Assembly (NCBI RefSeq): GCF_013623775.1
Contig: NZ_JABFAM010000006.1
Location: 186,001 to 250,000, forward strand
Reading direction: 5' to 3'
Source: Rufibacter sp. XAAS-G3-1
Lineage (GTDB): Bacteria; Bacteroidota; Bacteroidia; Cytophagales; Hymenobacteraceae
Length of the DNA stretch: 64,000 nt
Shown: positions 1,889-60,117 of the stretch, one piece after another
Layout: the number at the start of each line of letters is the position of its first letter
How positions within the stretch are numbered: position 1 is the first letter of the stretch
Translations under genes and position numbers: made by a program
The notes under the pieces: generated by a model
Told to the model about the DNA's origin: nothing
Databases searched by the model: none
Seen by the model: the letters and a program-made list of their open reading frames with translations, nothing else

Positions 1889-1924
1889 GTTTTTAGGCTG
1901 TTTTTAGGAAAATAGGCCTAAAAC
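1889..1924. repeat. PAL palindromic repeat, copy 1
   Basis: Inverted arms TTTTAGGCTG / (G)GCCTAAAAC around a TTTTAGGAAAA centre, 11 bp past the lepB stop. Member of the 37-bp family described in the findings. Confidence 0.75.
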
Positions 1925-1928
1925 CACT

Positions 1929-2275
1929 GGTGGTTCCTTTCTGCGGTTTAGCCTCTGCTTGGAGCCGGCTTCTTTGGAGAGGTTGGCAGGTGCATGCAGT
2001 CTGCTGTTCCCTTGGCTTTTCTGTTTGTCCCGTGGGTGCAAATACTTTGCTGTTTCATCTTTTCCGCTAAGCGCTCGGGGAAGACTGGAACGGGGAAAGT
2101 AAGTAAAACCTTTTTTCTATGGCGCGGATTTACTTACGTGACTTGCTTTTCGGGTAATCTTAAGTCACGGAAGTTATTTCCTCGCCATAGAGAGATTCCC
2201 CTGCAAAGGCGTATTCCCCTCCCCGGAGGGGTCTCCATCATCTCCTTCCAGGACGCACCAATCACCCACTAGGGG
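1929..2275 (+). repeat. large dispersed repeat R, copy 1 (internally deleted)
   Basis: Shares long stretches with copies at 11793-12280 (+), 34481-34936 (-) and 60230-60625 (-): GGTTCCTTTCTGCG at the start, TGCTGTTCCCTTGGCTT, GTTTCATCTTT, CGGGGAAGACTGGAAC, and CGNATTCCCCTCC near the end. This copy lacks the GC-rich middle: sequence joins directly at GCGCTC, which occurs as a direct repeat on both sides of the missing segment in copy 2. It also carries an inserted palindrome CTATGGCG ... CGCCATAG (about 2128-2190). The ORF of 92 codons inside is not conserved and is not called. Confidence 0.7.
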
Positions 2276-2370
2276 TACCCAAACCACCGAAATACTCATG
2301 AAATGCCAGCTACCGTTTAGCTGGCATTTCTCTTTGATACCTAATAAGTAATGATATAGTAAAGTAGAGC

Positions 2371-2572
2371 ACTCGCTCGCGTCCCGCGCGTGTGGGTTAC
2401 CTGCGGCCTCTGGCCGCTAGGGAGAACATTACGGGTAACTTTCCTTTCAAATAGCAGAAAGGCTTTCAGTTTCTGTTTCGGGCCTGTTTTTCCGAAAATA
2501 GGCCCGAAACAGAGCTGTTCTCCCTAAAGGCCAGAGGCCGTGGGTACCCACACGCGCGGGACGCGAGCGAGT
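2371..2572. repeat. long imperfect inverted repeat (CTCGCTCGCG palindrome, large form)
   Basis: Arms of about 56 bp at 2371-2427 and 2517-2572 pair through ACTCGCTCGCGTCCCGCGCG, GTGGGT, GGCCTCTGGCC and TAGGGAGAAC. The 90-bp centre holds PAL copy 2. A short version with the same outer ends lies at 43119-43145. There is no gene between 1879 and 2673; the gap consists of R copy 1, this palindrome and PAL copies. Confidence 0.75.
2473..2512. repeat. PAL palindromic repeat, copy 2
   Basis: CTGTTTCGGGCC / GGCCCGAAACAG arms, nearly perfect over 13 bp, nested in the centre of the longer inverted repeat at 2371-2572. The paired changes (TTTCGGGCC with GGCCCGAAA) keep the stem intact relative to the consensus. 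Confidence 0.75.
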
Positions 2573-2631
2573 GAAATCATTACACTAGTAGTAAGAAATC
2601 CTTCGCAAAAAAGTAACCTTGAACCTGTTTA

Positions 2632-2667
2632 GAGGCTGATTTTCAGAAATCAGACCCTAAACAGGTT
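2632..2667. repeat. PAL palindromic repeat, copy 3
   Basis: Arms AACCTGTTTAG / CTAAACAGGTT around CTGATTTTCAGAAATCAG; ends 7 bp beyond the ung stop codon (minus strand), so it could end the ung transcript. Confidence 0.75.
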
Positions 2668-2673
2668 TATCAT

Positions 2674-3336
2674 TTACCAGTCAATCTCCGTTAGTCCGTG
2701 TTCCCGAAGGTAGGCATTGGCTTTGCTGAAATGGCGGGTTCCGAAGAAGCCTTTGTCGGCGGCGAATGGGGACGGGTGCGCTGCTTTCAAGACCAAGTGC
2801 TTTTTCTCGTCAATGATCTGGCCCTTCTTCTGGGCATAGGCCCCCCACAGCAGAAACACCACGTGCTCTTTTTCATCAGAGACTTTTTTGATGACGGCAT
2901 CGGTGAATTCCTCCCATCCTTTTTTCTGGTGCGAACCCGCCTGGTGGGCGCGTACCGTGAGCGTGGCGTTCAACAGAAGTACCCCCTGCTCTGCCCAGCG
3001 CTCCAGGTTGCCAGATCTGGGAATGGGTTTTCCCAGATCTGCCTCTATCTCTTTAAATATGTTTAATAGGGACGGGGGAGTACGCATGCCTTCGGCCACT
3101 GAGAACGCCAACCCGTTGGCCTGCCCCTGCCCGTGGTAGGGGTCTTGGCCCAGGATCACCACCCTTGCTTTGTCAAACGGGCATTCGTCAAAGGCATGGA
3201 AGATCTGCTTGCCCGGCGGATAAACTTCGGTGGAGGCGTATTCTGCCTTCACAAAATGGATGAGATTTTGGAAATATGGCTTCTCAAACTCATCTTGTAG
3301 TACTTGTTGCCAGCTACTTTCAATTTTTACCTGCAT
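2674..3336 (-). CDS. ung: uracil-DNA glycosylase (family 1)
   Basis: Removes uracil from DNA as the first step of base excision repair. The water-activating motif GQDPYHGQGQANGLAFSV (around residue 63) carries the catalytic Asp, and the C-terminal HPSPFAADKGFFGTRHFS carries the DNA-intercalation loop; in most Ung proteins this reads HPSPLSAHRGFFG, so Leu-Ser-Ala-His is replaced here by Phe-Ala-Ala-Asp. The 220-residue length is normal. A -7-like TAgtTTTG on the minus strand at 3392-3399 lies about 60 bp upstream, without a clear -33 element. Confidence 0.97.
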   Translation of the reverse strand: MQVKIESSWQQVLQDEFEKPYFQNLIHFVKAEYASTEVYPPGKQIFHAFDECPFDKARVVILGQDPYHGQGQANGLAFSVAEGMRTPPSLLNIFKEIEADLGKPIPRSGNLERWAEQGVLLLNATLTVRAHQAGSHQKKGWEEFTDAVIKKVSDEKEHVVFLLWGAYAQKKGQIIDEKKHLVLKAAHPSPFAADKGFFGTRHFSKANAYLREHGLTEIDW

Positions 3337-3443
3337 AGAAGAGGTACCAGTTAATGGTTTTTAGCGTATTTTTACTTTAGAATCCGGCTGGCAAAACTAT
3401 AACGCCAGAAAGCCTGTTCCATTTATACCAAATTAAGGCACGC

Positions 3444-3830
3444 ATGGATACGAAAACAACCCAAGGAGTCACTGTCAACGTCACGACAAATTACCTCCCT
3501 GACTATTCCAGTCCGGCTCAGCAGCACTTTGTCTTCGCTTACAAGATCACCATCCAGAACAACAGCGAATTTACGGTAAAGTTATTACGCCGCCACTGGC
3601 ATATCTACGATTCTAACAATGAGGTTAGGGAAGTGGAGGGCGAAGGCGTGGTAGGGCAACAGCCGGTGCTGGAGCCTGGTGAAAGTCACCAGTACGTGTC
3701 GGGTTGTAACCTGAAGACCAGCATTGGAAAGATGGCCGGTACCTACCTGATGGAACGTCTGGTGGACGGCCGTCAGTTTCACGTCACCATTCCCGAATTC
3801 ACCCTCATCATTCCTTATAAACTCAATTAA
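3444..3830 (+). CDS. apaG: ApaG family protein
   Basis: Small all-beta (immunoglobulin-like fold) protein of 128 residues. The family signature is visible as FVFAYKITIQNNS, the segment LLRRHWHIYDSN, then GEGVVGQQPVLEPGESHQYVSGC and the MAGTYLM strand. In enterobacteria ApaG is linked to Co2+/Mg2+ resistance, but its biochemical role is unsettled, so only family membership is claimed. It is divergent from ung (107 bp between starts) and is followed after 26 bp by a methyltransferase on the same strand. Confidence 0.93.
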   Translation: MDTKTTQGVTVNVTTNYLPDYSSPAQQHFVFAYKITIQNNSEFTVKLLRRHWHIYDSNNEVREVEGEGVVGQQPVLEPGESHQYVSGCNLKTSIGKMAGTYLMERLVDGRQFHVTIPEFTLIIPYKLN

Positions 3831-3856
3831 TCCCGCCTTTGGTGCAGCACGCCGCC

Positions 3857-4627
3857 ATGATCTACAGGTACGCCTCTTTTTGGTGGCGTTCAGGGAATGC
3901 GCATGGACTGCACTCCCCTTTCGTTTTCAACCTTTATTGCCACATCATCCACCACGAGGGCTATTTCCTGGCCTATGATGCGGTAGAAACCCTTCGGGAA
4001 GAACTGCTCCAAGACCAGACCCTGCTGGAGGTAACCGATTTTGGGGCGGGCTCCCACTCAGGTGCTACCCGCCAGCGGAAAATAGCCGATATTGCCCGCA
4101 CCGCGGCCAAACCCGCCCGCTTGGGTCAGTTGCTGTTCCGGCTGGCCAACCATTTCAAGCCCGCCACTTTGCTGGAGTTGGGCACTTCTCTGGGACTTAC
4201 CACCGGGTACCTGGGCCTGGCCCGAAAAACAGCCGCCTTGTACACCTTTGAAGGCTGCCCTGCCCTTGCGGCGCAAGCCCGTAAGAACTTTAAAACGCTG
4301 GGGCTGCAAAACGTACAACTGGTGGAGGGCAATTTAGACCAAACGCTGGCGCAAACGCTGAACCAGTTGGAAAGAGTGGACTTTGTGTTCTTTGACGGAA
4401 ACCACCGCTATGAACCCACCCTGCGGTACTTTGAGCAATGCCTGACCAAAGCCCACGAGGACAGTGTCTTCATTCTGGATGACATTTATTGGTCAAGTGA
4501 GATGGCCGAGGCCTGGAAAAAGATAAAGCAGCACCCCCAGGTACTGCTCACCGTTGATCTGTTTTACCTGGGCCTGGTCTTTTTCCGAAAGAACCAGCCT
4601 AAGCAGCATTTCACGCTTCGTTTCTGA
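3857..4627 (+). CDS. class I SAM-dependent methyltransferase (O-methyltransferase-like)
   Basis: Probable small-molecule methyltransferase of 256 residues. The SAM-binding strand-loop LLELGTSLGLTTGYLGLA (around residue 115) matches motif I of catechol O-methyltransferase-like enzymes; VDFVFFDGNHRYEPTLRYFEQC and FILDDIYWSSEM give motifs post-I to III. The ATG at 3857 is preferred over an in-frame TTG (3839) and GTG (3842) because MIYRYASFWWRSGNAHGLHS is the usual N-terminus of this Bacteroidota group. Substrate unknown. It converges on kdsA with an 86-bp gap holding one PAL copy. Confidence 0.85.
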   Translation: MIYRYASFWWRSGNAHGLHSPFVFNLYCHIIHHEGYFLAYDAVETLREELLQDQTLLEVTDFGAGSHSGATRQRKIADIARTAAKPARLGQLLFRLANHFKPATLLELGTSLGLTTGYLGLARKTAALYTFEGCPALAAQARKNFKTLGLQNVQLVEGNLDQTLAQTLNQLERVDFVFFDGNHRYEPTLRYFEQCLTKAHEDSVFILDDIYWSSEMAEAWKKIKQHPQVLLTVDLFYLGLVFFRKNQPKQHFTLRF

Positions 4628-4667
4628 AATATACCGCCAAAACAGCCGTCTTATCCAAAGCACTGGT

Positions 4668-4713
4668 AAAACCGTTTAGGGCCTGTTTTCATAAAAACAG
4701 GCCCTAAACGGTT
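4668..4713. repeat. PAL palindromic repeat, copy 4
   Basis: Perfect arms AAACCGTTTAGGGCCTGTTT / AAACAGGCCCTAAACGGTTT with a 6-bp centre, filling the gap between two convergent genes and abutting the kdsA stop codon. T-runs lie on both strands, fitting a bidirectional terminator. Confidence 0.85.
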
Positions 4714-5535: not shown

Positions 5536-5599
5536 CTGTTAACTCAGTTTATGTCCTTCGGCTGTAAGCCGATGCTTATTTTTTTCCTGCGTTGCCATT

Positions 5600-5637
5600 C
5601 GTTTTAGGCCTGATTTCATAAAAACAGGCCTAAAACG
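5600..5637. repeat. PAL palindromic repeat, copy 5
   Basis: Near-consensus copy: CGTTTTAGGCCTGATTTC, then ATAAAAACAGGCCTAAAACG. Lies 55 bp downstream of the methyltransferase stop (minus strand) and upstream of kdsA. Confidence 0.85.
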
Positions 5638-5691
5638 ACGTGCTTGGCTAAAAGGCGCCGCACTCTTTGCCTAGCCCAAAAGTACAGAATT

Positions 5692-6415: not shown

Positions 6416-7357
6416 ATGGCGACTGAAACACCCGAAAAGGATAGTAACCGCAAATTGTTGGTTGTAGGCCTTATAATTGTGCTGCTCAGCATTAACGGTA
6501 TCCTTATTTACATGCAGCAGCAGAAAACGCAGCAGAATGAGGAGCAGCAGGAAATCATTAAGGTGAAGAGTACCGAGTTGGAAAACCAGATCAAAGTATT
6601 TGAAACCCTCAAGGCCGATTATGAGCGGCAAAGTGCCGAACTAAGCGCCATGGGTATCTCCAACGACTCGCTGGAAACCAGAATTGCGGCCATCAATGCA
6701 GACCTGGCCCAGCTGCGCGCCTTTAGAAACAGTTCTTTCACGGTGGCAGACCAGCGACGGTTTCAGCAACGGGCCCAAAACCTGGAGTTAGCCCTTCAGA
6801 AAAAAGACGAGGAAGTGGCGAAGCTGAAAGACGACAACGAAGAACTTTTCACCGAAGTAACGGGCCTGAAAACCACACAGAATAAGTTGGCAGACTCTAT
6901 TTCCATGCTTTCCAGCAACAACAAGGAACTGGAAGAGAAAGTGAACCTGGCCTCTAAACTGGAAGCCCAGAACATAGCCGTCACCATCATCAATGACAAC
7001 GGCAAAGAGAAAGAAGACGCTGAGGAAGAATACAAGGCCAAACGCGTAGACAGAATCAAGCTTAGCTTTAGGCTAGGTAAAAACGAAGTGGCGCCCAAAG
7101 AAAACAAAGAGATTCTGATGCGCCTGATTGAGCCCGATGGCTCTGCCCTGTACAACCTGGCCACTGGTTCGGGTACGTTTGAGTTTGAAGGAAAAGAGCA
7201 GTTCTACACCGCCAAACGCGACATTGTCTTTGATAACTCCCAGCAGTTGGTGTCGTTCATCTACTCCAAAGGCACTCCCTACAAAACCGGAAAACACCTG
7301 ATTGAGATCTACTCAGACGGTTTCTTGATTGGTTCCACTTCTTTTACCCTGAAATAG
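6416..7357 (+). CDS. membrane-anchored coiled-coil protein, function unknown
   Basis: A 313-residue protein I cannot assign to a named family. A short charged N-terminus is followed by one membrane segment (about residues 14-33, LLVVGLIIVLLSINGILIYM), then a long heptad-rich coiled coil (about 35-195), then a roughly 100-residue beta-rich C-terminal domain (from RVDRIKLSFRLGKNEVAP to the end). By topology the coiled coil and beta domain should be periplasmic. It has its own canonical promoter, stands alone, and is followed by a terminator. A role in envelope organisation is possible but only inferred. Confidence 0.8.
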   Translation: MATETPEKDSNRKLLVVGLIIVLLSINGILIYMQQQKTQQNEEQQEIIKVKSTELENQIKVFETLKADYERQSAELSAMGISNDSLETRIAAINADLAQLRAFRNSSFTVADQRRFQQRAQNLELALQKKDEEVAKLKDDNEELFTEVTGLKTTQNKLADSISMLSSNNKELEEKVNLASKLEAQNIAVTIINDNGKEKEDAEEEYKAKRVDRIKLSFRLGKNEVAPKENKEILMRLIEPDGSALYNLATGSGTFEFEGKEQFYTAKRDIVFDNSQQLVSFIYSKGTPYKTGKHLIEIYSDGFLIGSTSFTLK

Positions 7358-7380
7358 CATTTACAGCCTGCTTTCAGCAA

Positions 7381-7421
7381 AACAGCCCCTAAACGTTCTG
7401 GCGTTTAGGGGCTGTTTTTTT
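7381..7421 (+). terminator. intrinsic terminator after the coiled-coil gene
   Basis: Stem AACAGCCCCTAAACG / CGTTTAGGGGCTGTT with a 6-nt loop followed by T7, 23 bp after the stop. The left arm is the right half of a PAL-like repeat (about 7364-7395), so the terminator may derive from PAL. Confidence 0.85.
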
Positions 7422-7469
7422 GAATGAATGAGAGAATGAATGAGAGAATGAATGAGAGAATGAATGAGT
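7422..7469. repeat. 12-bp tandem repeat, four units
   Basis: GAATGAATGAGA repeated four times (last unit ends GAGT). A related array lies at 22041-22085 and ends in the same GAGTG. The rest of the gap to 7646 shows no gene. Confidence 0.9.
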
Positions 7470-7646
7470 GTGAAAATTTTGGGCCCATAAAATGGTGACA
7501 TGTAATGCGGTGAGAGGGTTCACGTTTAAGTCTAGTTTTGAGAAACCAGCTCATAAACAGGCAGGCAACTCTAGCTAGCCTACTCCCTGGTTTTTCCACC
7601 ATCTTACATTCACTCCATCATTCCCTCTCGCAATCAATCATTAACC

Positions 7647-10286
7647 TCAGTCCACCATGACACGCCGATCCTGAATGACTTTGAAGTTCTCTATCATCTT
7701 GATCGCCTCCGGAATGTCTTCAGAGAAAATGGTGATAAATGAATTTCGCTCGGCGTGTTCCAGGGCGTAGGCAATGGCCACCATCTCCTGCCCTATCACT
7801 TTGAAGGGCTTAAGAGGGTCTACCTGCAAGATGCCGTTGATCACGCTTTGGTTGATTTCCTCGGCAGTACGGCCCCGCAGGTCTTTATCTGACCGAATGA
7901 TTACTTCATCAAACATCTGCGCCGCCAATTTTCCCAATTCAACCCAGTCTTCCGCCCGCCGGTCACCCACACCCGCTACTATCCCCACTTTTTTGCGGGC
8001 ATCTACGTTCTGCAGAAAATCAGCTATTCCTTTCATGCCTGCCGGGTTGTGGGCGTAATCTACCAGCACCTCAAAGGCGGGGAACTTGAACAGGTTCATT
8101 CTGCCCGGTGTCTTGGCCGCCGAGGGCACAAACGTACGCAATGCGGTTTTGATCTCAGAAATCTCAAAACGGGAGATGTAGCCCGCCAGCGTGGCCGCCA
8201 GTACGTTCTCAATATTGAACTTGGCCCGGCCGCCAAAGGTAAGCGGAATATCCGCCACGCGGTCTACCCGTATTTTGTAGGTGTTTTTGAAAATTGAGAT
8301 AAATCCGTTCTCAAATACCGCGGCTAGTCCACCTTGGGCCACATGCTTGAGAATGCGCGGGTTGTTTTCATCCATGCTGAAGAAAGCCACTTTCGCTTCT
8401 ACTTCCTTGGCCATGTGGTAGACGTTGTCGTCATCGGCGTTCAGGATGGCATACCCGTTTTTGCTTACGCTCTTAGGTACCACGGCCTTTACGCGGGCCA
8501 TGTCTTCCAGGGTGTAGATGTCGCGCAAGCCCATGTGGTCTTCGGCTACGTTAGTTACAATGCCAATGTCGCACTGCTGGAAACCTAAACCCGAGCGCAG
8601 CATTCCGCCCCGGGCGCACTCCAGCACCGCAAAGTTGACGGTTGGGTCACGCAGGACGAACTCGGCGCTTTTGGAACCGGTGGTATCCCCTTTTTCCAGC
8701 AGCGTGTCCTGGATATAGATGCCGTCAGTAGTGGTGAAACCTACCTTGTAGCCCACTGATTTCACCATATGGGCGATAAGCCGGGTGGTTGTGGTTTTGC
8801 CGTTAGTACCCGTAATGGCAATGATGGGAATGCGGGACGGGCAACTGTCTGGGAAGAGCATTTCAATCACCGGGTCTGCCACGTTCCGGGGCAAACCTTC
8901 GGTGGGTGCCACGTGCATCCTAAAGCCTGGTGCCGCGTTCACCTCTATGACTGCCCCTCGGGCCTCTGGTAACGGAATAGCGATGTCTGAGGTGACTACG
9001 TCAATACCGCAGATATCCAAGCCTATGGTTCCGGCAATCCGCTCGGCCATCAGTACATTATAAGGATCAATCAGGTCGGTTACGTCCGTAGCGGTACCAC
9101 CGGTAGAGAGGTTGGCGGTACTTTTCAGGAACAGTTCTTCGCCGTCTGCAATGACTGTGTCAAGGGTATAGCCTTTGCTGTCCAGAATGCCGTTGGTGTC
9201 TTTGTCTACGGTAATCTTGGTAAGTTCTTTCTCGTGGCCCACTCCGCGGCGCGGATCTGTGTTTACCTTATCAATGAGTTGCTGCACGGTAGAAACTCCG
9301 TCTCCCACCACCATGGCCGGGGTGCGTTTGGCGGCGGCCACAAACTTTTTATTCACCACCAGTAAACGGAAGTCATAGCCTTGGATGAACTGCTCTACAA
9401 TAACCGCTTTTTCGGCTTTGGAGTACTTCAGCGCTGTCTCGAAACCCGCCACGGCTTCTTCCCAGTTTTTAATATTGATGCCCGCCCCTTTTCCGTGGTT
9501 ACCGTCCAGTGGTTTTGTCACGATGGGATAGCCCAGAAAGTGAATCGCCTCTTTTAATTCGTCCAGGGTGTACACAATCTCCCCTTCGGGAACAGGCACC
9601 CCTGCTTCGCGCAGCACCTCCTTGGTAGCACTTTTGTCACCGGCTAATTCTACCGCAAACGCCGCCGTACGGCACGTCATGGTAGCCTGAATGCGCTTCT
9701 GATGCACGCCGTAGCCTAACTGGATCAATGAACTTTTGTTCAGGCGGATATAAGGGATACCTCTTGCCACCGCTTCTGACACAATGGAATAGGTACTAGG
9801 CCCAATGTGTTCATCTTCCCTGATCTCGTGTAACTCCTCCACGTCTGGGGCAATGTCATAGGCTTCATTTCTCACCAGCGCCGTGACCACCCGTATGGCC
9901 GCATGCGCCGCGTATTCCCCGGCTTTCTCTTCCTGGTAGGAAAAGACCACGTATTCAAAACCGGGCTGAGGAGCCGGATACGTTCGTCCAAATCCTGATT
10001 CCATGCCGCCTAGGGTTTGCAGTTCCAGGGCTACGTGCTCCACCACATTGCTTAGGGGAACCCCTTCTTCCCGGAGCCTTCTGAGGTAACCTCCTTCCTG
10101 CCCCTCGGTGCTACGATGCGAAATCATACCGGGGAACATGGTTTCCAGCTTTTGGGCGAAACCCGGAAGATCTGAGGTGAGCACCCCGGCAAAATCTTCC
10201 ATGTCCAGTTTTAGTACTACAATTTTCGGGTGTTTCACAGACCAGTAGTTTGGTCCGCGCATGATGCGCAATTCTGCGATTTTCAT
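7647..10286 (-). CDS. cphA: cyanophycin synthetase
   Basis: Polymerises aspartate and arginine into the nitrogen-storage polymer cyanophycin using ATP. The 879 residues show the three CphA parts: an N-terminal domain (1 to about 165), an ATP-grasp domain (about 220-475, with GYPIVTKPLDGNHGKGAGINI and VIEVNAAPGFRMH) that adds Asp, and a C-terminal Mur-ligase domain starting at IIAITGTNGKTTTTRLIAHM with its P-loop, then DYAHNPAGM. All key motifs look intact. It starts 39 bp after cyanophycinase on the same strand, forming a make-and-degrade operon. Confidence 0.95.
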   Translation of the reverse strand: MKIAELRIMRGPNYWSVKHPKIVVLKLDMEDFAGVLTSDLPGFAQKLETMFPGMISHRSTEGQEGGYLRRLREEGVPLSNVVEHVALELQTLGGMESGFGRTYPAPQPGFEYVVFSYQEEKAGEYAAHAAIRVVTALVRNEAYDIAPDVEELHEIREDEHIGPSTYSIVSEAVARGIPYIRLNKSSLIQLGYGVHQKRIQATMTCRTAAFAVELAGDKSATKEVLREAGVPVPEGEIVYTLDELKEAIHFLGYPIVTKPLDGNHGKGAGINIKNWEEAVAGFETALKYSKAEKAVIVEQFIQGYDFRLLVVNKKFVAAAKRTPAMVVGDGVSTVQQLIDKVNTDPRRGVGHEKELTKITVDKDTNGILDSKGYTLDTVIADGEELFLKSTANLSTGGTATDVTDLIDPYNVLMAERIAGTIGLDICGIDVVTSDIAIPLPEARGAVIEVNAAPGFRMHVAPTEGLPRNVADPVIEMLFPDSCPSRIPIIAITGTNGKTTTTRLIAHMVKSVGYKVGFTTTDGIYIQDTLLEKGDTTGSKSAEFVLRDPTVNFAVLECARGGMLRSGLGFQQCDIGIVTNVAEDHMGLRDIYTLEDMARVKAVVPKSVSKNGYAILNADDDNVYHMAKEVEAKVAFFSMDENNPRILKHVAQGGLAAVFENGFISIFKNTYKIRVDRVADIPLTFGGRAKFNIENVLAATLAGYISRFEISEIKTALRTFVPSAAKTPGRMNLFKFPAFEVLVDYAHNPAGMKGIADFLQNVDARKKVGIVAGVGDRRAEDWVELGKLAAQMFDEVIIRSDKDLRGRTAEEINQSVINGILQVDPLKPFKVIGQEMVAIAYALEHAERNSFITIFSEDIPEAIKMIENFKVIQDRRVMVD

Positions 10287-10325
10287 AGATTGGTTAATCT
10301 AGTATGCCAGCGGGTATGTCTTTTG

Positions 10326-51954: not shown

Positions 51955-52028
51955 GGAGGTTTGCCTTTGCTAATTCTCGTGGGCCCGCTTGACAATCTAT
52001 AAACATCCATTATATTGTAAGGAACATA

Positions 52029-52264
52029 GTGATTACTATCGTTGAAAGAGTGCCAAAGAAATCCCTGCAATACATGGAAGGAACGGACGGGCTTTACGAA
52101 GTCCGTATAGAGGTAGGGAGCAATATCTTCAGGGTTTTCTGTTGTTTTGATGAGGGAAGCTAGTGGTGCTTTTTAACGGATTCCAGAAAAAGACACAGAA
52201 AACACCGAAGTCGGAAATTGAACGAGCAAAGAAGCTTAAAGCAGCGTATTTCGCACAAAAGTAA
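52029..52264 (+). pseudogene. HigB/RelE-type (Gp49-like) toxin, frameshifted
   Basis: Frame 1 from the GTG at 52029 reads VPKKSLQYMEGTDGLYEVRI, then GSNIFRVFCCFDEGS and a stop (52161-52163). The next frame continues KLVVLFNGFQKKTQKTPKSE to a stop at 52262-52264. Joining them needs one extra A in GGGAAGC (about 52155-52158), giving the family's DEGKLVVLFNGFQKKT. The usual N-terminal third is not visible either, so the toxin is truncated and frameshifted. An XRE antitoxin follows. Confidence 0.8.
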
Positions 52265-52972: not shown

Positions 52973-53010
52973 GCGTTTTCGGCCTGATTTCCGGAAAACA
53001 AGCCAAAAGC
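52973..53010. repeat. PAL palindromic repeat, copy 23
   Basis: GCGTTTTCGGCCTGATTTC, then CGGAAAACAAGCCAAAAGC. Confidence 0.7.
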
Positions 53011-53039
53011 AGACGGGCAGAAAAAAAGCTCCGAGAAGC

Positions 53040-53076
53040 TGTTTTCGGTCTTTTTTCGAAAAACAGGCTGGAAACA
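53040..53076. repeat. PAL palindromic repeat, copy 24
   Basis: TGTTTTCGGTCTTTTTTC, then GAAAAACAGGCTGGAAACA; only 30 bp from copy 23, the closest pair in the window. Confidence 0.65.
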
Positions 53077-53183
53077 GAAACTGTGAAAAAAGTAAAAGAA
53101 AAACTACAGGTAACAATGAACTGTCACCTTCCGATTACCTTCTAAAACGATATAATTATTCAAACAAATATAGACCTACTGTC

Positions 53184-53746: not shown

Positions 53747-54115
53747 TGGTGCGTTAGTTGAACATATAAATGCCAGCCTTGGGCCGCCACTTACCCAAGG
53801 TTTTGCAACACAAATAAGCGCTCAGCCCTACCCAGCACATAGCCTGTTCCAAGACATTTTAAGCAAATAACATATGAGTGCCAATGGGAGATAAAAAATG
53901 CGGACAAAATTAGTTTGACTTACTTTTCTTGTTGTCCTCCTGGAAGGATCTTGGTGGCGAACGGCAATTGCGCTCCATCAAAGCTATTCTAGTTCGCCCA
54001 CAAGAGGAAGACAGATAGTATAAGGTAATGCTGTCTCCAGACTTACATGCGAGCAAATTCAGCCTACGTTACTTATATCAGAAGAAGAAAGCCTTCCTTA
54101 AAATGAAAATTAAGT

Positions 54116-54153
54116 TGTTTAAAGGCTCTTTTTTCAAAAACAAGCCAAAAACG
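54116..54153. repeat. PAL palindromic repeat, copy 25
   Basis: TGTTTAAAGGCTCTTTTTTC, then AAAAACAAGCCAAAAACG; 60 bp upstream of hisS. Confidence 0.6.
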
Positions 54154-54213
54154 TCGCCAGGAAGCTCACCCCAGAGCAGGAAGATTCTTTTCTGAAATTG
54201 CTATCTTCGCGGC

Positions 54214-55596
54214 ATGAGCAAAGACAAACCATCCATCCCCAAGGGCACCCGTGATTTCGGGCCGGCCACGGTGGTGAAACGCAACTATATCTTCTCCATC
54301 ATCAAGCGTACTTTTGAGAAATTCGGGTTTCTGCCGCTAGAAACGCCCGCCATGGAAAACCTGTCGGTGTTGACCGGCAAGTACGGCGACGAGGGCGACC
54401 AACTGATTTTCAAAGTCCTGAACTCCGGCGATTTCCTGAGCAAGGTTTCGGCCCCAGATCTGGAAAACGGCTATAAACCGCTTACCCCCAGAATTTCAGA
54501 AAAAGCCCTGCGCTATGACCTTACCGTGCCCTTCGCCCGGTTTGTGGTCATGAACCGCAACGAAATCGCCTTCCCTTTTAAACGTTACCAAATCCAGCCT
54601 GTCTGGCGCGCCGACCGTCCGCAGCGGGGCCGTTACCGGGAGTTTTACCAGTGCGACGCCGATGTGGTAGGCACCAATTCCCTGCTCTGCGAAGCCGAAA
54701 TCATTCTCATGATGGACGAGGTGCTGAGCACGCTGGGCCTGGACGATTTCACCATCAAATTCAACCACCGCGGGCTGCTAGCGGGCATCGCCGAAGCCAT
54801 TGGGGCCAAAGGCCGCGAAGCGGACTTGTGCGTGGCCATTGACAAACTGGACAAAATTGGCCAGGATGCGGTGAATGAAGAACTTCGGCAGAAAGGCATT
54901 GTGGAAGAATCGCTGGTGAAGTTGCAGCCCATTCTGGGTTTATCGGGTGAAATTTCAGATTTACTGCCAAAACTGGATGAGTTGTTACAGGAATCGGAAG
55001 AAGGCCAACGCGGTTTGAAGGATATTCGTAGCATGCTATCTTTCCTGGAAAGCTTTGCCGTGCACAAAGCCAAGGTACAGCTGGACGTAACCTTGGCGCG
55101 CGGACTCTCCTATTATACCGGCTGCATTTTTGAGGTGAAAGTAAACAACGCGCAGATGGGCAGCATTAGCGGCGGCGGCCGGTACGACAACCTTACCGGT
55201 ATGTTCGGGTTGCCCGGCGTGTCGGGCGTGGGGTTCTCGTTCGGCGTAGACCGCATCTTTGACGTGCTGGAAGAACTCAACCTGTTTCCGCAGGACAGCC
55301 AAATCCTTACGCAGGTGCTTATCTCCAACTTTGACGAGGCGAGCATGCGCTACTCCCTGCCGGTACTCCAAACGTTGCGCGAAGCCGGTATCTCCGCTGA
55401 ATTATATCCCGAAGCGGCCAAGCTGAAAAAGCAGATGGCCTACGCCGACCAGAAAAGCATTCCGTACGTGCTCCTGATTGGTTCTGAGGAAATGGAGAGC
55501 GGCCTGCTGAATCTTCGTAACATGCGCACCGGCGTTCAGGAACGCCTGACGGTACAAGAGATCTTAGGCGTGTTACAAGCCAACGCAACCCACTAA
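54214..55596 (+). CDS. hisS: histidyl-tRNA synthetase
   Basis: Charges tRNA-His. 460 residues. Class II motif 1 region (IKRTFEKFGFLPLETPAMEN), motif 2 QIQPVWRADRPQRGRYREFY, the His-binding LARGLSYYTGCIFEV, and motif 3 VGFSFGVDRIFDVLEE, then the C-terminal anticodon-binding domain (from about 365). A TATCTTCG -7-like box lies shortly upstream of the ATG. The stop shares one base with the hutH start (TAATG), an unusual coupling of histidine use and histidine breakdown. Confidence 0.97.
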   Translation: MSKDKPSIPKGTRDFGPATVVKRNYIFSIIKRTFEKFGFLPLETPAMENLSVLTGKYGDEGDQLIFKVLNSGDFLSKVSAPDLENGYKPLTPRISEKALRYDLTVPFARFVVMNRNEIAFPFKRYQIQPVWRADRPQRGRYREFYQCDADVVGTNSLLCEAEIILMMDEVLSTLGLDDFTIKFNHRGLLAGIAEAIGAKGREADLCVAIDKLDKIGQDAVNEELRQKGIVEESLVKLQPILGLSGEISDLLPKLDELLQESEEGQRGLKDIRSMLSFLESFAVHKAKVQLDVTLARGLSYYTGCIFEVKVNNAQMGSISGGGRYDNLTGMFGLPGVSGVGFSFGVDRIFDVLEELNLFPQDSQILTQVLISNFDEASMRYSLPVLQTLREAGISAELYPEAAKLKKQMAYADQKSIPYVLLIGSEEMESGLLNLRNMRTGVQERLTVQEILGVLQANATH

Positions 55597-57101
55597 TGGC
55601 AACGCAGCACCTCGTTTCCCTAGGCCCACTCTCCCTGCCGGAGATTAAAAAGATTCTGCAAACCAAAGCCACCCTGGCCCTTTCTGAGGAGGTGGAGCAA
55701 CGGATTCTGAGAGCACACGCGTACCTGCACCAACATCTGCAAGCCGCTCCGGCCCCGGTGTACGGCATCAATACCGGATTCGGGGCGCTTTGCAACACCA
55801 CTATTTCCCCCGAGAAACTGGAGGCCTTGCAGCGCAATCTGGTCATGTCGCATGCTTGCGGCACCGGCGAAGAAGTACCCGCCGAGGTGGTGAAACTGAT
55901 GCTGTTGCTCAAGGTGCAGTCGCTGGGTTACGGGTACAGCGGCGTGCAGCTAACCACGGTGCAGCGCCTGCTCTCCTTCTTTAATAGAGAGGTGTACCCC
56001 ATTGTCTACCAACAAGGCTCTTTGGGGGCCAGCGGCGATTTAGCCCCTTTGGCGCACCTGTGCCTGCCCTTGATTGGGCTGGGCGAGGTGCGGTTTCAGG
56101 ACTTCAAACTGAAAGGCCACGAAATACTGGATATTTTCAGTTGGGAGCCCATCAAACTGCAAGCCAAGGAAGGGCTGGCGCTACTGAACGGCACCCAACT
56201 GATGGCGGCTTACGGAACCATCATTTGTCTGCGCGCCCGCCAGATATCGGCCGCGGCCGATGTGCTGGCTGCTCTATCCCTGGAAGCGTTCAACGGACTC
56301 AGCACTCCGTTTTGGCCCCAGATTCACAAAATCAGGCCACATTCGGGTCAGGTAAAAACTGCCGCCCGCATTCTGGGCTTACTCACCGGCAGCGAACTCC
56401 AGCAACAACCCAAAACCCAGGTGCAAGACCCGTACTCGTTCCGGTGCGTGCCGCAGGTGCACGGTGCCAGTCTGGATGCGCTGGAATACGCCGAGAAAGT
56501 GTTCACCACTGAGGTGAATTCCGTAACCGATAACCCCAATGTTTTCCCCGAGGAGGAACTAGTGCTTTCGGGCGGTAACTTCCACGGGCAACCTTTGGCG
56601 CTGGCGTTGGACTTCCTGAGCATCGGCTTGGCCGAGTGGGGCAGTATCTCAGAGCGGCGTACCTTCCAGCTTCTATCGGGGCAGCGGGGCTTGCCCCAGT
56701 TCCTCATTCAGGAGCCGGGCCTTAATTCTGGTCTCATGATTCCGCAATACACGGCGGCTTCCATCGTTAGCCAGAATAAGCAACTGTGTACCCCCGCCAG
56801 CGTTGATTCCATAGTCTCGTCTAACGGGCAGGAAGACCACGTGAGCATGGGCGCGAACGGAGCCACCAAAGCGTACCAGGTGGTGCAGAACGTGGAGCGG
56901 ATTTTAGCCATTGAGTTGATGGCCGCCGTACAGGCCCTGGAATTCCGCCGTCCGCTGCGCACCTCTCCGGCGCTGGAGAAAGTAGTGGAGGCGTACCGCC
57001 GGCAGGTAGCGCCGCTGGAGCAGGATCGCGTGTTGCAGCCCGACATTGAAAAGAGTATCAAGTTTATCCAGGAGTTTCCCTTTGACGAGTTGATGGCGTG
57101 A
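55596..57101 (+). CDS. hutH: histidine ammonia-lyase
   Basis: Deaminates histidine to urocanate. 501 residues. The MIO-forming Ala-Ser-Gly is in YQQGSLGASGDLAPLAHL (about residue 145); YGINTGFGAL and the FRCVPQVHGASLDALEY block follow the HAL pattern, and SSNGQEDHVSMGANGATKAY has the substrate-binding Gln-Glu-Asp-His typical of HAL. No hutU, hutI or hutG are present in this window. It overlaps hisS by 1 bp and the next gene by 4 bp. Confidence 0.93.
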   Translation: MATQHLVSLGPLSLPEIKKILQTKATLALSEEVEQRILRAHAYLHQHLQAAPAPVYGINTGFGALCNTTISPEKLEALQRNLVMSHACGTGEEVPAEVVKLMLLLKVQSLGYGYSGVQLTTVQRLLSFFNREVYPIVYQQGSLGASGDLAPLAHLCLPLIGLGEVRFQDFKLKGHEILDIFSWEPIKLQAKEGLALLNGTQLMAAYGTIICLRARQISAAADVLAALSLEAFNGLSTPFWPQIHKIRPHSGQVKTAARILGLLTGSELQQQPKTQVQDPYSFRCVPQVHGASLDALEYAEKVFTTEVNSVTDNPNVFPEEELVLSGGNFHGQPLALALDFLSIGLAEWGSISERRTFQLLSGQRGLPQFLIQEPGLNSGLMIPQYTAASIVSQNKQLCTPASVDSIVSSNGQEDHVSMGANGATKAYQVVQNVERILAIELMAAVQALEFRRPLRTSPALEKVVEAYRRQVAPLEQDRVLQPDIEKSIKFIQEFPFDELMA

Positions 57102-58744
57102 GAAAACGGTTGGCATTTCTGCTTTTTTGGCTGGGTACTTCAGCTGGTGCGTGGGCGCAGCAATCTCCTCCTTTTCTGGCCTACAATCAGCAAAACCAAC
57201 CCGTAGAATCCTTCTGCGTGGGGGAAACCATTGCCTTCAAAGACAATTCCGGCCAAAGCAACGTCACCGAATATTATGATTTTGACAAACGCGATGGCGT
57301 AAATGCCATTGAACCTCCTACGCATGTATTCACCGCCCCCGGCACGTACGTGGTGACACAGCTCACCGGCGTTGGCAATTTCAAGGAACGCAGCTTTGTG
57401 GTAAAAGCCGCCGCGCCGCCCTCGGCCCCCGTGGTGCAAAGAATCACGCTTCAGGGCACATCCATTCAGGTTCAACTGCAAACCACCGGCGTGAATGATT
57501 TGGTGGTGGAAAGAGCGGTTTCCCCTGCGGGTACTTTTACGGCCATCCAAACCTTGTCCTCTGTAGCGGTGGGGCAAAGCCAGCACACCATCACCGTTTC
57601 TCCCGTGACCGGCTGCTACCGGGTGCGGGTCACCAATAGCTGCTCGGGCCGGGAGGATATTGTTTCCAATGTGGTTTGTGCCCAGACCTTGACGGCGAGG
57701 GCCGGAGACCAGCAAAATATCCTTTCTTGGGCTCCTAATTTAAGTTCCAGCAGTGTGGTCAGTTACCAGGTACTCAGAGGCAGTCAGTTGTACCAGACGC
57801 TTCCTGGTACCCAGACCTCGTTCACAGATGCCCAGGTGGCCTGCGGCCGAAAGTACTCTTATCAGTTGGTGGCTCTGCTGCAGAATGGCGCGCAGAGCGC
57901 TTCTTTGCCCGTGGAAGTCACCACCACCGGCACTACTCCTCCCACGGCTCCCTTGCTGGTGGCCAGCTTTGATTTGCAGAACCGGGTCACGGTAGAAACC
58001 ATTGTGCCCGCCCAAGAGACGTTTATGGAGCAAACCGTTTTCCGAAGCCAGAACGGGGCTGCTTTTAGCCAGATTTTGGAAAAACAGCCCAAAAACACAA
58101 TAGACCCAACTTCCCTTAACCTGACCGCTCCGGTATGTTACCAAGTGGCCTACACAGATTCCTGCCAGCTTGTTTCGCCCAGAAGCGCTAGGGTTTGCCC
58201 TACCCTTTTAACTGCCACCCTCCAGCCCGAGGGCAGTGTCCAACTCACCTGGAACTCGTACGAAGGCTTTCCATCTGGCATAGGCACCCAAACGCTGGAA
58301 CTACTGGACGAACAGGGCGCGGTGTATTGGAGCGTCCCGGTTACGGGCCAAAGCTACCTTGATGCGCAGCCGCAGGAGAAATTCCAGCGCCTGACCTACC
58401 GCCTGGTAACCTCAGCGTTGAACGCCCCTTACCAGAGTTCTTCCAATACCGCCACGGTAGACCAGGGCTTCCAGTTTCAATTCCCCACCGCCTTCACCCC
58501 TAACAACGATGGCCTGAATGATGTCTTCCGGCCCGTAGGCGCTCCGTTTTCCTCTTCGTACACCCTGCAAATCCTGAACCGCTGGGGTCAGATTATCTTT
58601 GAGAGCAAAGACCCTAAAACCGGCTGGGACGGCACCCACGGCGGCAAACCAGCCCCTCCCGAAACCTACCTCTTCCGCTTTGAGGCCATTGATGTGAACG
58701 GCCAGCGAATTACCCAGAAAGGAACGGTTACGCTGCTGAGGTAA
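57098..58744 (+). CDS. secreted T9SS protein with PKD-like and CHU_C (type B) domains
   Basis: 548 residues from a GTG start that overlaps the hutH stop (GTGA). Signal peptide (RKRLAFLLFWLGTSAGAWAQ), a PKD-like domain (about 35-105; FTAPGTYVVTQL), fibronectin III-like stretches (about 110-440), and the gliding-motility-associated type B C-terminal domain: FPTAFTPNNDGLNDVFRPVG and LQILNRWGQIIFESKDPKTG, ending GTVTLLR. Probable surface adhesin exported by the type IX system. A PAL copy lies inside the coding sequence (58061-58096), encoding AFSQILEKQPKN. Confidence 0.92.
   Translation: MRKRLAFLLFWLGTSAGAWAQQSPPFLAYNQQNQPVESFCVGETIAFKDNSGQSNVTEYYDFDKRDGVNAIEPPTHVFTAPGTYVVTQLTGVGNFKERSFVVKAAAPPSAPVVQRITLQGTSIQVQLQTTGVNDLVVERAVSPAGTFTAIQTLSSVAVGQSQHTITVSPVTGCYRVRVTNSCSGREDIVSNVVCAQTLTARAGDQQNILSWAPNLSSSSVVSYQVLRGSQLYQTLPGTQTSFTDAQVACGRKYSYQLVALLQNGAQSASLPVEVTTTGTTPPTAPLLVASFDLQNRVTVETIVPAQETFMEQTVFRSQNGAAFSQILEKQPKNTIDPTSLNLTAPVCYQVAYTDSCQLVSPRSARVCPTLLTATLQPEGSVQLTWNSYEGFPSGIGTQTLELLDEQGAVYWSVPVTGQSYLDAQPQEKFQRLTYRLVTSALNAPYQSSSNTATVDQGFQFQFPTAFTPNNDGLNDVFRPVGAPFSSSYTLQILNRWGQIIFESKDPKTGWDGTHGGKPAPPETYLFRFEAIDVNGQRITQKGTVTLLR
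58061..58096. repeat. PAL palindromic repeat, copy 26 (inside coding sequence)
   Basis: GCTTTTAGCCAGATTTTG, then GAAAAACAGCCCAAAAAC; translated in frame as AFSQILEKQPKN within the CHU_C protein. Confidence 0.6.
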
Positions 58745-58782
58745 GCGTTTTTGGCCTTATTTTTCGAAAAGAGTTGATAAAC
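58745..58782. repeat. PAL palindromic repeat, copy 27
   Basis: GCGTTTTTGGCCTTATTTTTC, then GAAAAGAGTTGATAAAC; begins directly after the CHU_C gene stop. Confidence 0.6.
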
Positions 58783-58835
58783 AGATTCGCTGAAAAGTAT
58801 GTCTTCCCCTTTTTAAGCATTTACTATTGTGCAAA

Positions 58836-59921
58836 ATGAGAAAAGTCTTGATAATATTTTTGTCACTTCTGCTCTCCCTTTCTGGCCAAGCGCAATCTTC
58901 TGAGCGGTGGAAGGCCTTCTGGGACAGCAACCTAAAGCTGAAAGGCTTTAAAGATTCTAATGGTGTGGTAAAAATTGAACCTAAGTATTCTGATATCATA
59001 GCCAACTACTTTGAAGACATCATGGCTGTGACGGAAAATAGGAATGGCAAGTACCAATCTTACTACCTGACCAAAACAGGAAAAATTGTTGGAAGAGATA
59101 GCTTGCACTATTATGACAATGGAACAGATTGTGAAAGTGAGGGCTTTATTCGGTTTAGAGACAAGAAAACTGGCCTAGTCGGAATGTTTGACAAGCATGG
59201 ACACATTGTTATTCCAGCCGTTTACAACAGTCTATCAAAGGTGCAAAATGGCCTTGTTTGGGCCCTGAAAGGTGCAAGTAAGAAGTACCTAGATGAGCAC
59301 AAAGAGCATTATTCTTATGAAGGGGGAGAAAAAATGCTCATCAACACAAAAAATGAAGTTATCTTAAGAAACACTTATCACCAGGCATTTCTGAACTTGT
59401 ATTCTTTAGAAATCCACTCAAAAGTTACTACAGCCCCTAACAGGCAAAGCTTTGAAAGTGATAATGGTAAATACTACTCCTTCATTGACTATGAGAAGGA
59501 ATTCAAAGGTTGGCTTGACACAGAATTACTCAACTCCTTGGAACCAGAAAACCTACGTAAGGCTTCTCATGACAGCATCACCTTTTGGCAGGAACCAAAC
59601 GGCTGGAAAGCCGAAGCAAAAGCCAGCTTTATCAATAGAAACTTTAAAGTAATCAGGGCAAGACTGCTCGCGTTAAAAGAAGAAAAAGCAGATTTCTTCT
59701 TTTCCATTGATGGACTTAACCATTATATATTTACCGGGCCGAGCTTTGATAAGTACTATAATAACTGCGGTGAAGCCCTCCAAGAAAAATACCCAACCAT
59801 GAACTTGATTATAAATACAAAATTAAAGGGTGACCTGTCCCAAGACCATTTTGAGTTTTTACGAACTGAAAACGGATATAAACTCATTAGTATCTCAATT
59901 AGGGATGCAAACCTGAAATAG
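58836..59921 (+). CDS. WG-repeat-like exported protein
   Basis: 361 residues from the ATG (MRKVLIIFLSLLLSLSGQAQ), a clear signal peptide. Segments FKDSNGVVKIEPKYSDIIAN and GLVGMFDKHGHIVIPAVYNS follow the pattern of WG beta-propeller repeats (here with Leu/Met at the Trp position). The second half shows no family I recognise. Its base composition is visibly more AT-rich than hutH and hisS next to it, which may indicate transfer. Function unknown. Confidence 0.75.
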   Translation: MRKVLIIFLSLLLSLSGQAQSSERWKAFWDSNLKLKGFKDSNGVVKIEPKYSDIIANYFEDIMAVTENRNGKYQSYYLTKTGKIVGRDSLHYYDNGTDCESEGFIRFRDKKTGLVGMFDKHGHIVIPAVYNSLSKVQNGLVWALKGASKKYLDEHKEHYSYEGGEKMLINTKNEVILRNTYHQAFLNLYSLEIHSKVTTAPNRQSFESDNGKYYSFIDYEKEFKGWLDTELLNSLEPENLRKASHDSITFWQEPNGWKAEAKASFINRNFKVIRARLLALKEEKADFFFSIDGLNHYIFTGPSFDKYYNNCGEALQEKYPTMNLIINTKLKGDLSQDHFEFLRTENGYKLISISIRDANLK

Positions 59922-60078
59922 CAGCAGTCACTAAATTAAAGTCACTACTCGCCTTAGATATAAGTAATAATATACCTGCACAAAATACCACTTCGTGGCC
60001 TACTATCTGGTGACCACGGCGCTAAATTCCTCATACCAGTGTAATTCCAATATAGCCAGCATACGTTACTCTGGTAAG

Positions 60079-60117
60079 CGTTTTCTGCCTATCTTTCCAT
60101 AATTAGGCCAAAAACAG
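60079..60117. repeat. PAL palindromic repeat, copy 28
   Basis: GCGTTTTCTGCCTATCTTTC, then CATAATTAGGCCAAAAACA; degenerate. Confidence 0.5.

Follow-up and report, generated by a model that had tools for sequence, protein, structure and literature searches.

What is the palindromic word that recurs throughout this 64-kb stretch of Rufibacter DNA (hereafter the window), and what keeps it there? The initial annotation had described a 37-bp palindrome in about 28 copies. The repeat is real, and the copies that it named at 5600–5637, 39201–39237, and 2473–2512 were all present, but the count was too low. With a profile refined on 400 kb, the repeated element of the window was a 40-bp dyad, roughly GTTTnnGGCCTGnTTTnnnnAAAnCAGGCCnnAAAC, with 44 copies at a score of at least 16; an alternative count at a score of at least 14 gave 47 copies, compared with 0, 0, 0, 3, and 0 in five second-order Markov controls. 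The motif is symmetric about a dyad axis and contains four A/T tracts that are fixed. A scan of the whole 5.3-Mb genome (G000; other G-numbers denote the genomes of the compared set) found 1047 near-consensus copies and none of the reversed pattern. Of the known RNA families, tRNA alone was found in the window at gathering scores. Within the genus, 15 of 16 genomes were sampled over 100–400 kb each, with G063 left out. The sampled densities of these 15 species were 0.31–0.78 per kb, which extrapolates to roughly 1,600–4,100 sites per Rufibacter genome. Half-sites outside full copies showed no overall enrichment (43 vs. 43.0 in shuffles at a score of at least 14, summed over species); therefore, the full word is the unit, and the half-site was ruled out in that role. 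Half-sites exceeded their own shuffles at this score in G000 (12 vs. 7.7) and G042 (6 vs. 3.0).

Genes in the window were called with a simple script, with a Pfam check on ten genes in its first 11 kb. Convergent gaps contained copies at 1887–1926 (profile score 47.2; stop codon 8 bp away), 2473–2512 (45.4; near-perfect hairpin), 2625–2664 (39.9; hairpin, stop 9 bp away), and 60078–60117 (30.8), and degenerate copies at 7521–7560 (24.0) and 43054–43093 (20.2). Copies in tandem gaps were located at 5599–5638 (49.6; near-perfect hairpin), 14720–14759 (42.5), 19366–19405 (37.6), 20684–20723 (30.4), 32070–32109 (47.0), 34315–34354 (33.6), 35011–35050 (40.3), 41286–41325 (37.4), 45645–45684 (45.9), 52973–53012 (43.3), 53038–53077 (32.0), and 54115–54154 (40.6), with degenerate ones at 14924–14963 (24.4) and 52166–52205 (16.0). 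The sequence of the copy at 41286–41325 is among those of a set of orthologous sites from 10 species. Further copies lay 4 bp (20747–20786, score 40.4; 39200–39239, 47.7), 8 bp (24439–24478, 40.0), 11 bp (26249–26288, 44.6), 17 bp (15197–15236, 38.4), or 45 bp (51916–51955, 39.2) from a stop codon, at the stop of the 6416–7357 gene (7357–7396, 36.5), or immediately 3′ of the stop at 58744 (58745–58784, 33.5). The copy 3′ of kdsA (4672–4711, 48.6) was extended to a perfect hairpin at 4670–4713. Stop codons were spanned at 4606–4645 (degenerate, 23.5; gene 3839–4627), 42989–43028 (24.8; gene 41455–43008), and 49301–49340 (22.3; gene 48173–49309), and one degenerate copy was found at a gene start (41429–41468, 24.2).

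The initial annotation had noted an association with stop codons, and this was confirmed against random placement: a called stop lay no more than 60 bp from 20 of the 44 copies, whereas the same was true of 12% of positions drawn at random and of 26% of those drawn at random from intergenic DNA. Over 400 kb of G000, counting gaps of at least 60 bp, copies occupied 39 of the 49 gaps between convergent genes, 69 of the 111 between tandem genes, and 22 of the 49 between divergent genes. The corresponding figures in G017 were 17 of 19 for convergent and 6 of 25 for divergent gaps, and the very strong 3′-end bias in such species suggests a gene-end role. The copies were also evenly spaced, with a coefficient of variation of 0.69–1.06 vs. 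1.21–1.52 for random intergenic placement in all 15 samples. DNA gyrase binding is known for the BIMEs of Escherichia coli. The dyad may be bound 3′ of transcription units by gyrase or by an abundant genus-specific protein and there form a roadblock in both directions or a sink for supercoils, with ordinary selection keeping the sites. The 3′-end distribution and the nearly complete occupancy of convergent gaps in G017 are in its favor, and the even spacing could also be explained by one site per transcription unit.

A function in transcription termination was considered next to protein binding. The word had been read as a two-way terminator or 3′-end stabilizer with frequent paired changes in its stem, and bidirectional intrinsic terminators or stabilizers with an unusually constrained stem would account for several observations. 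The paired changes hold for some copies only: near-perfect hairpins exist at 2473, 4672, and 5599. A hairpin with the motif core was found 3′ of kdsA in 14 of 16 genomes, its outer stem differing and yet still pairing. Among copies near a stop codon, strong stems (score of at least 16) were more frequent than after arm swapping in 14 of 15 species, as in G017 (0.18 vs. 0.04) and G000 (0.10 vs. 0.01); in all 15, arm swapping also lowered the mean stem score. However, strong stems made up only 0–40% of near-stop copies, and the highest fraction (0.40, G048) was mostly reached by arm swapping already (0.33). Over all copies, pairing between the arms exceeded only slightly the level expected from column frequencies or after arm swapping, and it was close to column expectation in most classes of the five species examined by column. 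No run of T followed the motif, and most copies lacked a U-tract. The terminator claim fits only extended hairpins like that of kdsA, which are a minority, and general intrinsic termination as the main function was rejected on the missing U-tract and the weak arm covariation; we consider this explanation improbable. A dyad with little arm covariation would suit a protein dimer on double-stranded DNA.

Copies within genes, which were missing from the initial annotation, bear on both explanations. Eleven of the 44 window copies lay within called genes, two of them at the 3′ end (18921–18960, score 30.4, across the end of the 17692–18960 gene; 45480–45519, 39.2, gene 44225–45526). Strong copies were present at 48671–48710 (40.5; gene 48173–49309), ungapped against G006, G027, and G045, and at 58059–58098 (39.8; gene 57218–58744), ungapped against four species. 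The others were at 24174–24213 (24.5; gene 23317–24393; ungapped against G045, G027, and G006), 26438–26477 (26.6; gene 26300–27232; ungapped against four species), 27448–27487 (19.1) and 27986–28025 (20.9) in the 27311–31972 gene, 50909–50948 (31.0; gene 50593–51870), 56307–56346 (18.1; gene 55596–57101), and 61476–61515 (24.3), whose gene (60635–61627) had no orthologue in the sampled stretches. Across the 15 species, 122 intragenic copies were counted at a score of at least 16, approximately eight times the 14.8 left after synonymous-codon shuffling, with a single reversed motif; the profile training set included intragenic copies, which biases this count slightly in their favor. When the G000 profile was applied to other species (score of at least 12), intragenic copies numbered 18 vs. 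2.0 shuffled in G027, 11 vs. 1.0 in G006, and 3 vs. 2.0 in G017. They were few in the six species with a sharp dialect (18 vs. 5.2 in total), and the excess was not clear in G017 (2 vs. 1.3) or G022 (3 vs. 1.7) alone. Intragenic copies were spread over the whole gene length, which is unfavorable to protein sites at gene ends, and their presence within genes also counts against terminators. In orthologue comparisons, 370 of 396 were ungapped at the copy, without insertions or deletions, and both orthologues had a copy at 239 of these 370 positions, compared with 91.7 when the codons of the orthologue were shuffled synonymously.

The word is restricted to the genus. All 16 Rufibacter genomes were positive, with 49–1742 near-consensus copies each and none of the reversed control, and 176 of 184 genomes from five other genera of the family had no copy, the remaining eight having one to three. 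Sites were mostly held in place between species while their flanks had diverged. Among 34 convergent or tandem orthologous gaps of G017 and G022, a copy was present in both species in 20, in one only in 1, and in neither in 13; among 36 such gaps of G000 and G045, the numbers were 21, 4, and 11. Conserved positions are also compatible with protein sites at gene ends. Recent gains and losses were not traceable because even the closest species were only ~85% identical in kdsA DNA; in this comparison, values for pairs of loci in opposite orientation carry no meaning.

The same data bear on the suggestion that the word is a REP-like mobile element, that is, a REP or MITE mobilized by a RAYT-type Y1 transposase. 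The proposed search for such genes found Y1_Tnp genes in 15 of 16 Rufibacter genomes. The 20 Y1 loci held 46 copies vs. 32.7 expected from the sample density, and nine of the 20 genes (0.45) were bracketed by copies within 450 bp, compared with 0.12 of 593 size-matched genes. The bracketing excess is nonetheless small, because 0.31 of 170 solitary genes were bracketed likewise. Moreover, the nine RAYT loci with inspected flanks carried other repeated palindromes, and G017, with 927 copies, gave no match to the Y1 transposase family (PF01797) at an E value of 0.001 or below. Together with the conserved positions and the ungapped intragenic sites, these results led us to reject RAYT/REP mobility: the word is neither confined to intergenic DNA nor spread by insertion, and the signals in favor shrank against solitary-gene controls. 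This explanation appears highly improbable.

The spelling of the word differed between species. Sharp and differing dialects were found in 6 of the 15 sampled species, for example, GGgCTCATTTC in G048, GTTTAGgGGCTg in G045, and GTTTTTGGcCTg in G017 and G022, and a loose consensus in nine. Copy identity was compared in ten selected species pairs. For eight site pairs of G045 and G048, orthologous copies were 0.66 identical, compared with 0.82 and 0.86 for non-orthologous copies within each species and 0.26 for the flanks. In pairs with looser dialects, the identity of orthologous copies equalled or exceeded that of copies from one species (G000–G045, 0.70 vs. 0.67/0.73; G000–G027, 0.68 vs. 0.67/0.63; G027–G006, 0.63 vs. 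0.60/0.53); therefore, concerted drift is demonstrated for the sharp dialects only. A joint change of dialect at many sites would probably be hard for an essential regulator, which weakens the case for protein sites at gene ends.

Some DNA was nearly devoid of the word. Two plasmid-like contigs had 2 copies (G048:C2) and 1 copy (G006:C2) in their first 80 kb, whereas the chromosome samples of G048 and G006 had 0.44 and 0.56 copies per kb, respectively; the 7.5-kb contig G006:C3 was an exception with 3 copies. G048:C2 encodes a conjugative-transposon TraM, and no mobile-element genes were found among four proteins scanned on G006:C2. Gene content was read in two motif-free stretches (22 kb and 26 kb; three of 9–11 kb were left out), and these contained a restriction/nuclease cluster and a phage integrase. 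Rarity in candidate recently acquired DNA combined with even spacing is the distribution expected of DNA uptake sequences (DUS/USS). The two plasmid-like contigs also have gene ends and are almost without the word; on balance, we regard binding of a protein or gyrase at gene ends as rather unlikely, if the most serious of the alternatives.

The word behaves like a self-DNA label for DNA uptake, not like a jumping repeat. We propose, judging the chance to be about even, that it is part of a DNA-uptake-sequence-like system driven by biased uptake. The element would be a double-stranded DNA recognition word of ~40 bp whose sites arise and stay in place between and within genes, their spelling drifting in concert within a species. 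A trans-acting recognizer, probably a cell-surface or competence-pathway component of a putatively transformable cell, would prefer DNA with the spelling of its own species. Own-spelling alleles would then be taken up and recombined more often, so that sites build up and stay standardized. Copies would persist where they do least harm, which is in intergenic DNA and most of all at 3′ ends; there, a minority have become full hairpins that may double as bidirectional terminators.

Genes for such a pathway were partly found. ComEC was present in all 16 Rufibacter genomes and DprA in G000, both being widespread and not specific. DUF5689, which is tied to transformation in Riemerella and was considered as a lead to the receptor, was present in only 8 of 16. 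No PilT/PilB-type ATPase (PF00437) scored above the family cut-off in G000, the one genome searched for this one family, and this counts against the uptake reading because the DUS systems known so far rely on proteins of the type IV pilus. The word is also far longer than a 10–12-mer, with an information content of 22–57 bits across the sampled species. The partly accessible literature yielded no report of competence in Rufibacter.

Earlier studies describe the DUS of Neisseriaceae as present in thousands of copies with species dialects and inverted pairs linked to terminators (PMC3630211), and as enriched in the core genome, missing from recently acquired genes, and spaced to match conversion fragments, with preliminary results indicating a similar distribution for USS (PMC2397512). 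The Rufibacter word resembles DUS in its thousands of copies, location in and between genes, dialects, depletion in acquired DNA, spacing (recombination-linked in DUS), and hairpins (PMC3630211; PMC2397512). It differs in that the 40-bp dyad itself is the unit, whereas Neisseriaceae use a 10–12-bp word whose inverted pairs form hairpins, and in lacking a pilus ATPase over the cut-off in G000; its uptake role is putative. The USS of Pasteurellaceae is a long motif with a conserved core and phased A/T tracts, directional and non-palindromic. The Rufibacter word, likewise of putative uptake function, is similar in length and A/T tracts but different in dyad symmetry and phylum. REP/BIME elements with RAYT in E. 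coli and Pseudomonas are imperfect palindromes of 35–40 bp that number several hundred or more and lie mainly 3′ of genes. The size, copy number, and 3′ placement are shared; unlike them, the Rufibacter word is also intragenic and position-conserved, shows dialects at orthologous sites, and occurs without a detected RAYT gene. The cyanobacterial HIP1, an 8-bp palindrome of debated cause that is very abundant in coding and non-coding DNA, shares this abundance but differs in length and in gene-end bias, none being known to us for HIP1.

To our knowledge, uptake sequences have been described in two proteobacterial families and nowhere else, and both families use type IV pili. In the part of the literature available, searches on Rufibacter repeats or palindromes, intergenic palindromes in Bacteroidetes, and uptake sequences in Pontibacter or Bacteroidetes/Bacteroidota yielded no report on this motif and none of uptake sequences in Bacteroidota. 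More tentatively, at somewhat less than an even chance, Hymenobacteraceae may possess pilus-independent uptake systems that evolved apart from those of Neisseriaceae and Pasteurellaceae. A dimeric or symmetric receptor would recognize the 40-bp palindromic word of Rufibacter, Pontibacter would use a 10-bp word (ARGTATARMC dialects), and receptor–word co-evolution would raise species barriers to gene exchange. Even if uptake is not the driver, an explanation is required for very many conserved sites drifting together. If the uptake reading is true, this would be a third, palindromic system, located in Bacteroidota, and a sister genus would have a word of its own, so that origin, dialect change, and receptor co-evolution become testable, and it would indicate a route of natural transformation in a phylum where this process has been little studied.

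Within the window (G000:C36:186001–250000), iterated profile refinement identified a 40-bp dyad in 44–47 copies. Its firmest features were four A/T tracts (columns 4–6, 16–18, 23–25 and 35–37) together with G3, C12/T13 and their complements, with columns 8, 9 and 11 and the four-base centre being far less constrained. The strict pattern (at most three mismatches) matched 1047 times in the 5.30-Mb genome carrying the window (G000), against 0 for the reversed control. A 400-kb sample of this genome yielded 248–254 copies by profile (0.62–0.64 per kb), compared with 0–2 scoring at least 8 in a single second-order Markov sequence, and extrapolation from this density gives approximately 3,300 copies in this genome. 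When 200 genomes of the family were searched, all 16 Rufibacter genomes contained 49–1742 strict matches, and the 184 genomes of five other genera contained 1–3 in eight cases and none in 176. The low strict counts of Rufibacter G006 (49) and G057 (88) are attributable to looser spelling, as their own profiles gave sample densities of 0.61 and 0.78 per kb, respectively. Across 80 named loci (1.45 Mb) at a score of 16, eight copies were found in the Rufibacter locus, one weak match in one Dyadobacter locus, and none in the rest.

The copies were located mainly between genes. In the G000 sample, 208 of 248 lay between genes, 32 well within called genes, and 8 no more than 30 bp from a gene's stop, against a baseline of 76% of random positions being genic. 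Gap density was highest between convergent and lowest between divergent genes (convergent, tandem and divergent: 6.0, 3.7 and 0.9 copies per kb in G017; 2.8, 2.5 and 1.6 in G000). Tandem-gap copies were nearer the upstream stop than the next start in 72/112 (G000), 38/52 (G045), 30/41 (G027), 39/46 (G017) and 22/36 (G006) cases. The main rival to an uptake-sequence reading is that the motif is a gene-end binding site. In each of the 15 species samples, copies were also more evenly spaced than if placed at random between genes, an effect that could equally arise from one site per transcription unit. The called coding fraction of G000:C36:1-400000 was 0.78 versus 0.84–0.88 in four other samples of the genus, and its intergenic DNA appears expanded. 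In the window, a cyanophycin synthetase-like gene adjoins a peptidase S51 (cyanophycinase-like) gene at 7647–11225.

The initial annotation had inferred that the palindrome works as a two-way terminator or 3′-end stabiliser. When arm pairing in five species was compared, one column pair at a time, with column-frequency expectation, observed pairing approximated expectation in most classes, with an excess near stops at columns 7–9 (G000), just outside the motif (G045 and G017), and in a few other cells. Near-stop copies had a longer mean stem than arm-swapped controls in 15/15 species (7.3 versus 5.6 in G000), and thus some covariation is present. Strong stems were a minority (0–40% of near-stop copies), exceeding arm-swapped controls in 14/15 species, and no T-run was found 3′ of the motif, where per-column T content was mostly 0.2–0.45. 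In general the motif is not a hairpin, and a terminator function may apply only to the true extended hairpins found at some sites. Downstream of kdsA, for example, 14 of 16 genomes carry an extended hairpin with the motif core, whose outer stem differs yet stays paired; G054 has a different hairpin without the core, and G051 has none at the threshold used. Long near-perfect hairpins were also observed in the window at 62299–62342, 18966–19008, 43020–43062 and 20650–20689. The first of these has the core GGCCTGCTTTCATGAAAGCAGGCC, lacks the outer GTTT, and is a possible terminator intermediate.

Site positions were largely shared among species. In orthologous convergent or tandem gaps, copies occurred in both, one or neither genome in 20, 1 and 13 of 34 gaps (G017–G022), 21, 4 and 11 of 36 (G000–G045), and 33, 9 and 8 of 50 (G027–G006). 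Divergent gaps were fewer and agreed more poorly in some pairs (3, 0 and 7 of 10 for G000–G045; 2, 6 and 5 of 13 for G027–G006). The distance from copy to gap edge was often, not always, equal within a few bases, and ungapped flank identity was only 0.26–0.40. At intragenic copies, orthologous proteins aligned ungapped in 370/396 comparisons. A search for the RAYT-type Y1 transposase succeeded in 15 of 16 Rufibacter genomes and detected none in G017. A link to these genes was first favoured by 46 motif copies at Y1 loci versus 32.7 expected and by 9 of 20 Y1 genes being bracketed by copies within 450 bp; it was weakened by the similar bracketing of 31% of 170 solitary genes and by other repeated palindromes at the Y1 loci, such as those around GTGTCCGCACGCATT and CCGCAAGTTTAGCG (nine flanks read, plus short blastn matches). 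Among loci L005–L024 (e.g., L011, L015, L016 and L020–L024), Y1 genes lie amid their own repeated palindromes, unlike the window motif. The agreement of gaps, the ungapped intragenic sites and the result for G017 argue against the REP-like mobile palindrome proposed initially. Separate from the palindrome, an unrelated interspersed repeat (up to ~220 bp, both orientations, 80–97% alike) occurs in the window at 1979–2076, 11900–12176, 34544–34873 and 60289–60522, and a 12-bp unit like GAATGAATGAGA forms tandem arrays at 7401–7494 and 22024–22097.

Refinement of the profile per species gave differing consensus words among the 15 species, with sharp dialects (46–57 bits) in six (G017, G022, G045, G048, G012 and G060) and looser ones (22–39 bits) in nine. 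Between sharp dialects (7–14 site pairs each), orthologous copies were less alike than non-orthologous copies within one species: identities were 0.66 against 0.82 and 0.86 (G045–G048), 0.67 against 0.76 and 0.77 (G045–G017), 0.69 against 0.79 and 0.84 (G045–G022), 0.69 against 0.77 and 0.87 (G012–G048), and 0.72 against 0.77 and 0.74 (G045–G012). They were called equal for G045–G060 (0.80 against 0.82 and 0.80) and for G017–G022, which have a common dialect (0.81 against 0.81 and 0.82). In loose-dialect pairs, orthologous copies were equally or more alike (G000–G027, 0.68 versus 0.67 and 0.63; G027–G006, 0.63 versus 0.60 and 0.53). Together with the shared positions, these comparisons indicate that the sites are old and that their spelling has been renewed jointly where dialects are sharp.

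A drive acting on the DNA word itself was assessed inside genes by shuffling synonymous codons per gene, leaving protein and codon usage unchanged. Over 15 species, 122 intragenic copies scored at least 16 (14.8 shuffled; 1 for the reversed motif) and 52 at least 25 (4.5 shuffled), spread along the full length of genes. The excess was greatest in G000, G027, G006, G057, G051, G037 and G032; G017 (2 versus 1.3) and G022 (3 versus 1.7) showed little or none. Where a gene held a copy scoring at least 20, 239 of 370 ungapped orthologous positions elsewhere also held one (score at least 10), compared with 9/1810 random positions and 91.7/370 after synonymous shuffling of the orthologue; protein conservation therefore accounts for part, not all, of the sharing. 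Half-sites outside full copies showed no excess (43 versus 43.0 shuffled; score at least 14, summed).

Some regions were poor in the motif. The first 80 kb of contig G048:C2 (155 kb) held 2 copies, against 0.44 per kb in the chromosome sample, and one of ten proteins scanned there was a conjugative-transposon TraM. In G006:C2 (235 kb), 1 copy was found in the initial 80 kb, against 0.56 per kb in the chromosome sample, with no mobile-element gene among four proteins scanned; as an exception, G006:C3 (7.5 kb) carries 3. Five motif-free stretches longer than 9 kb were found in the samples, and partial annotation covered the two longest, each of which runs to the edge of its sample: that in G037 includes a phage integrase (one of ten proteins scanned, five having no Pfam match), and that in G054 a UvrD/PD-(D/E)XK, N6-methylase and AAA cluster adjoining mutL.

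DNA uptake sequences (DUS) are described, in the excerpts used here, as having thousands of copies, dialects and inverted pairs tied to terminators (PMC3630211), and as enriched in the core genome and missing from recently acquired genes (PMC2397512). Taken together, the findings on the Rufibacter motif resemble these properties. The motif was not classed as a DUS, as it differs in being longer, in having dyad symmetry and in lacking the usual receptor machinery. ComEC was found in 16/16 Rufibacter genomes and DprA in G000, where no pilus-type ATPase scored above the cut-off. In Riemerella, also of the Bacteroidota, natural competence involves four proteins of unknown function besides ComEC, DprA, ComF and RecA; the excerpt of that study names no type IV pilus gene as essential, although it includes one predicted fimbrial protein (PMC8459023). 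The reading that the motif works like a DUS has about an even chance of being correct.

A different word was observed in the sister genus, Pontibacter. Two 20.8-kb loci contained 13 and 10 copies of CAGGTATAGC, 7 and 4 of them in genes (0.0 after synonymous shuffling), and a 60-kb stretch of G008 contained 39 copies of AAGTATAAA, of which 17 were intragenic (1.3 shuffled). In 26 genomes of the genus of G008, presumably Pontibacter, ARGTATARMC matched 94 to 2,482 times on both strands (reversed control, 40–101), exceeding the control 13–55-fold in 20 genomes and 3–8-fold in five, and lying near it in one (G028). The observations on this word, which has the dialects CAGGTATAGC and AAGTATAAAC, cover L114–L117, G008 and the 25 other genomes. 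ARGTATARMC may represent a second uptake-sequence-like word, unrelated to the Rufibacter motif, and it supports a wider occurrence of such words in the family.
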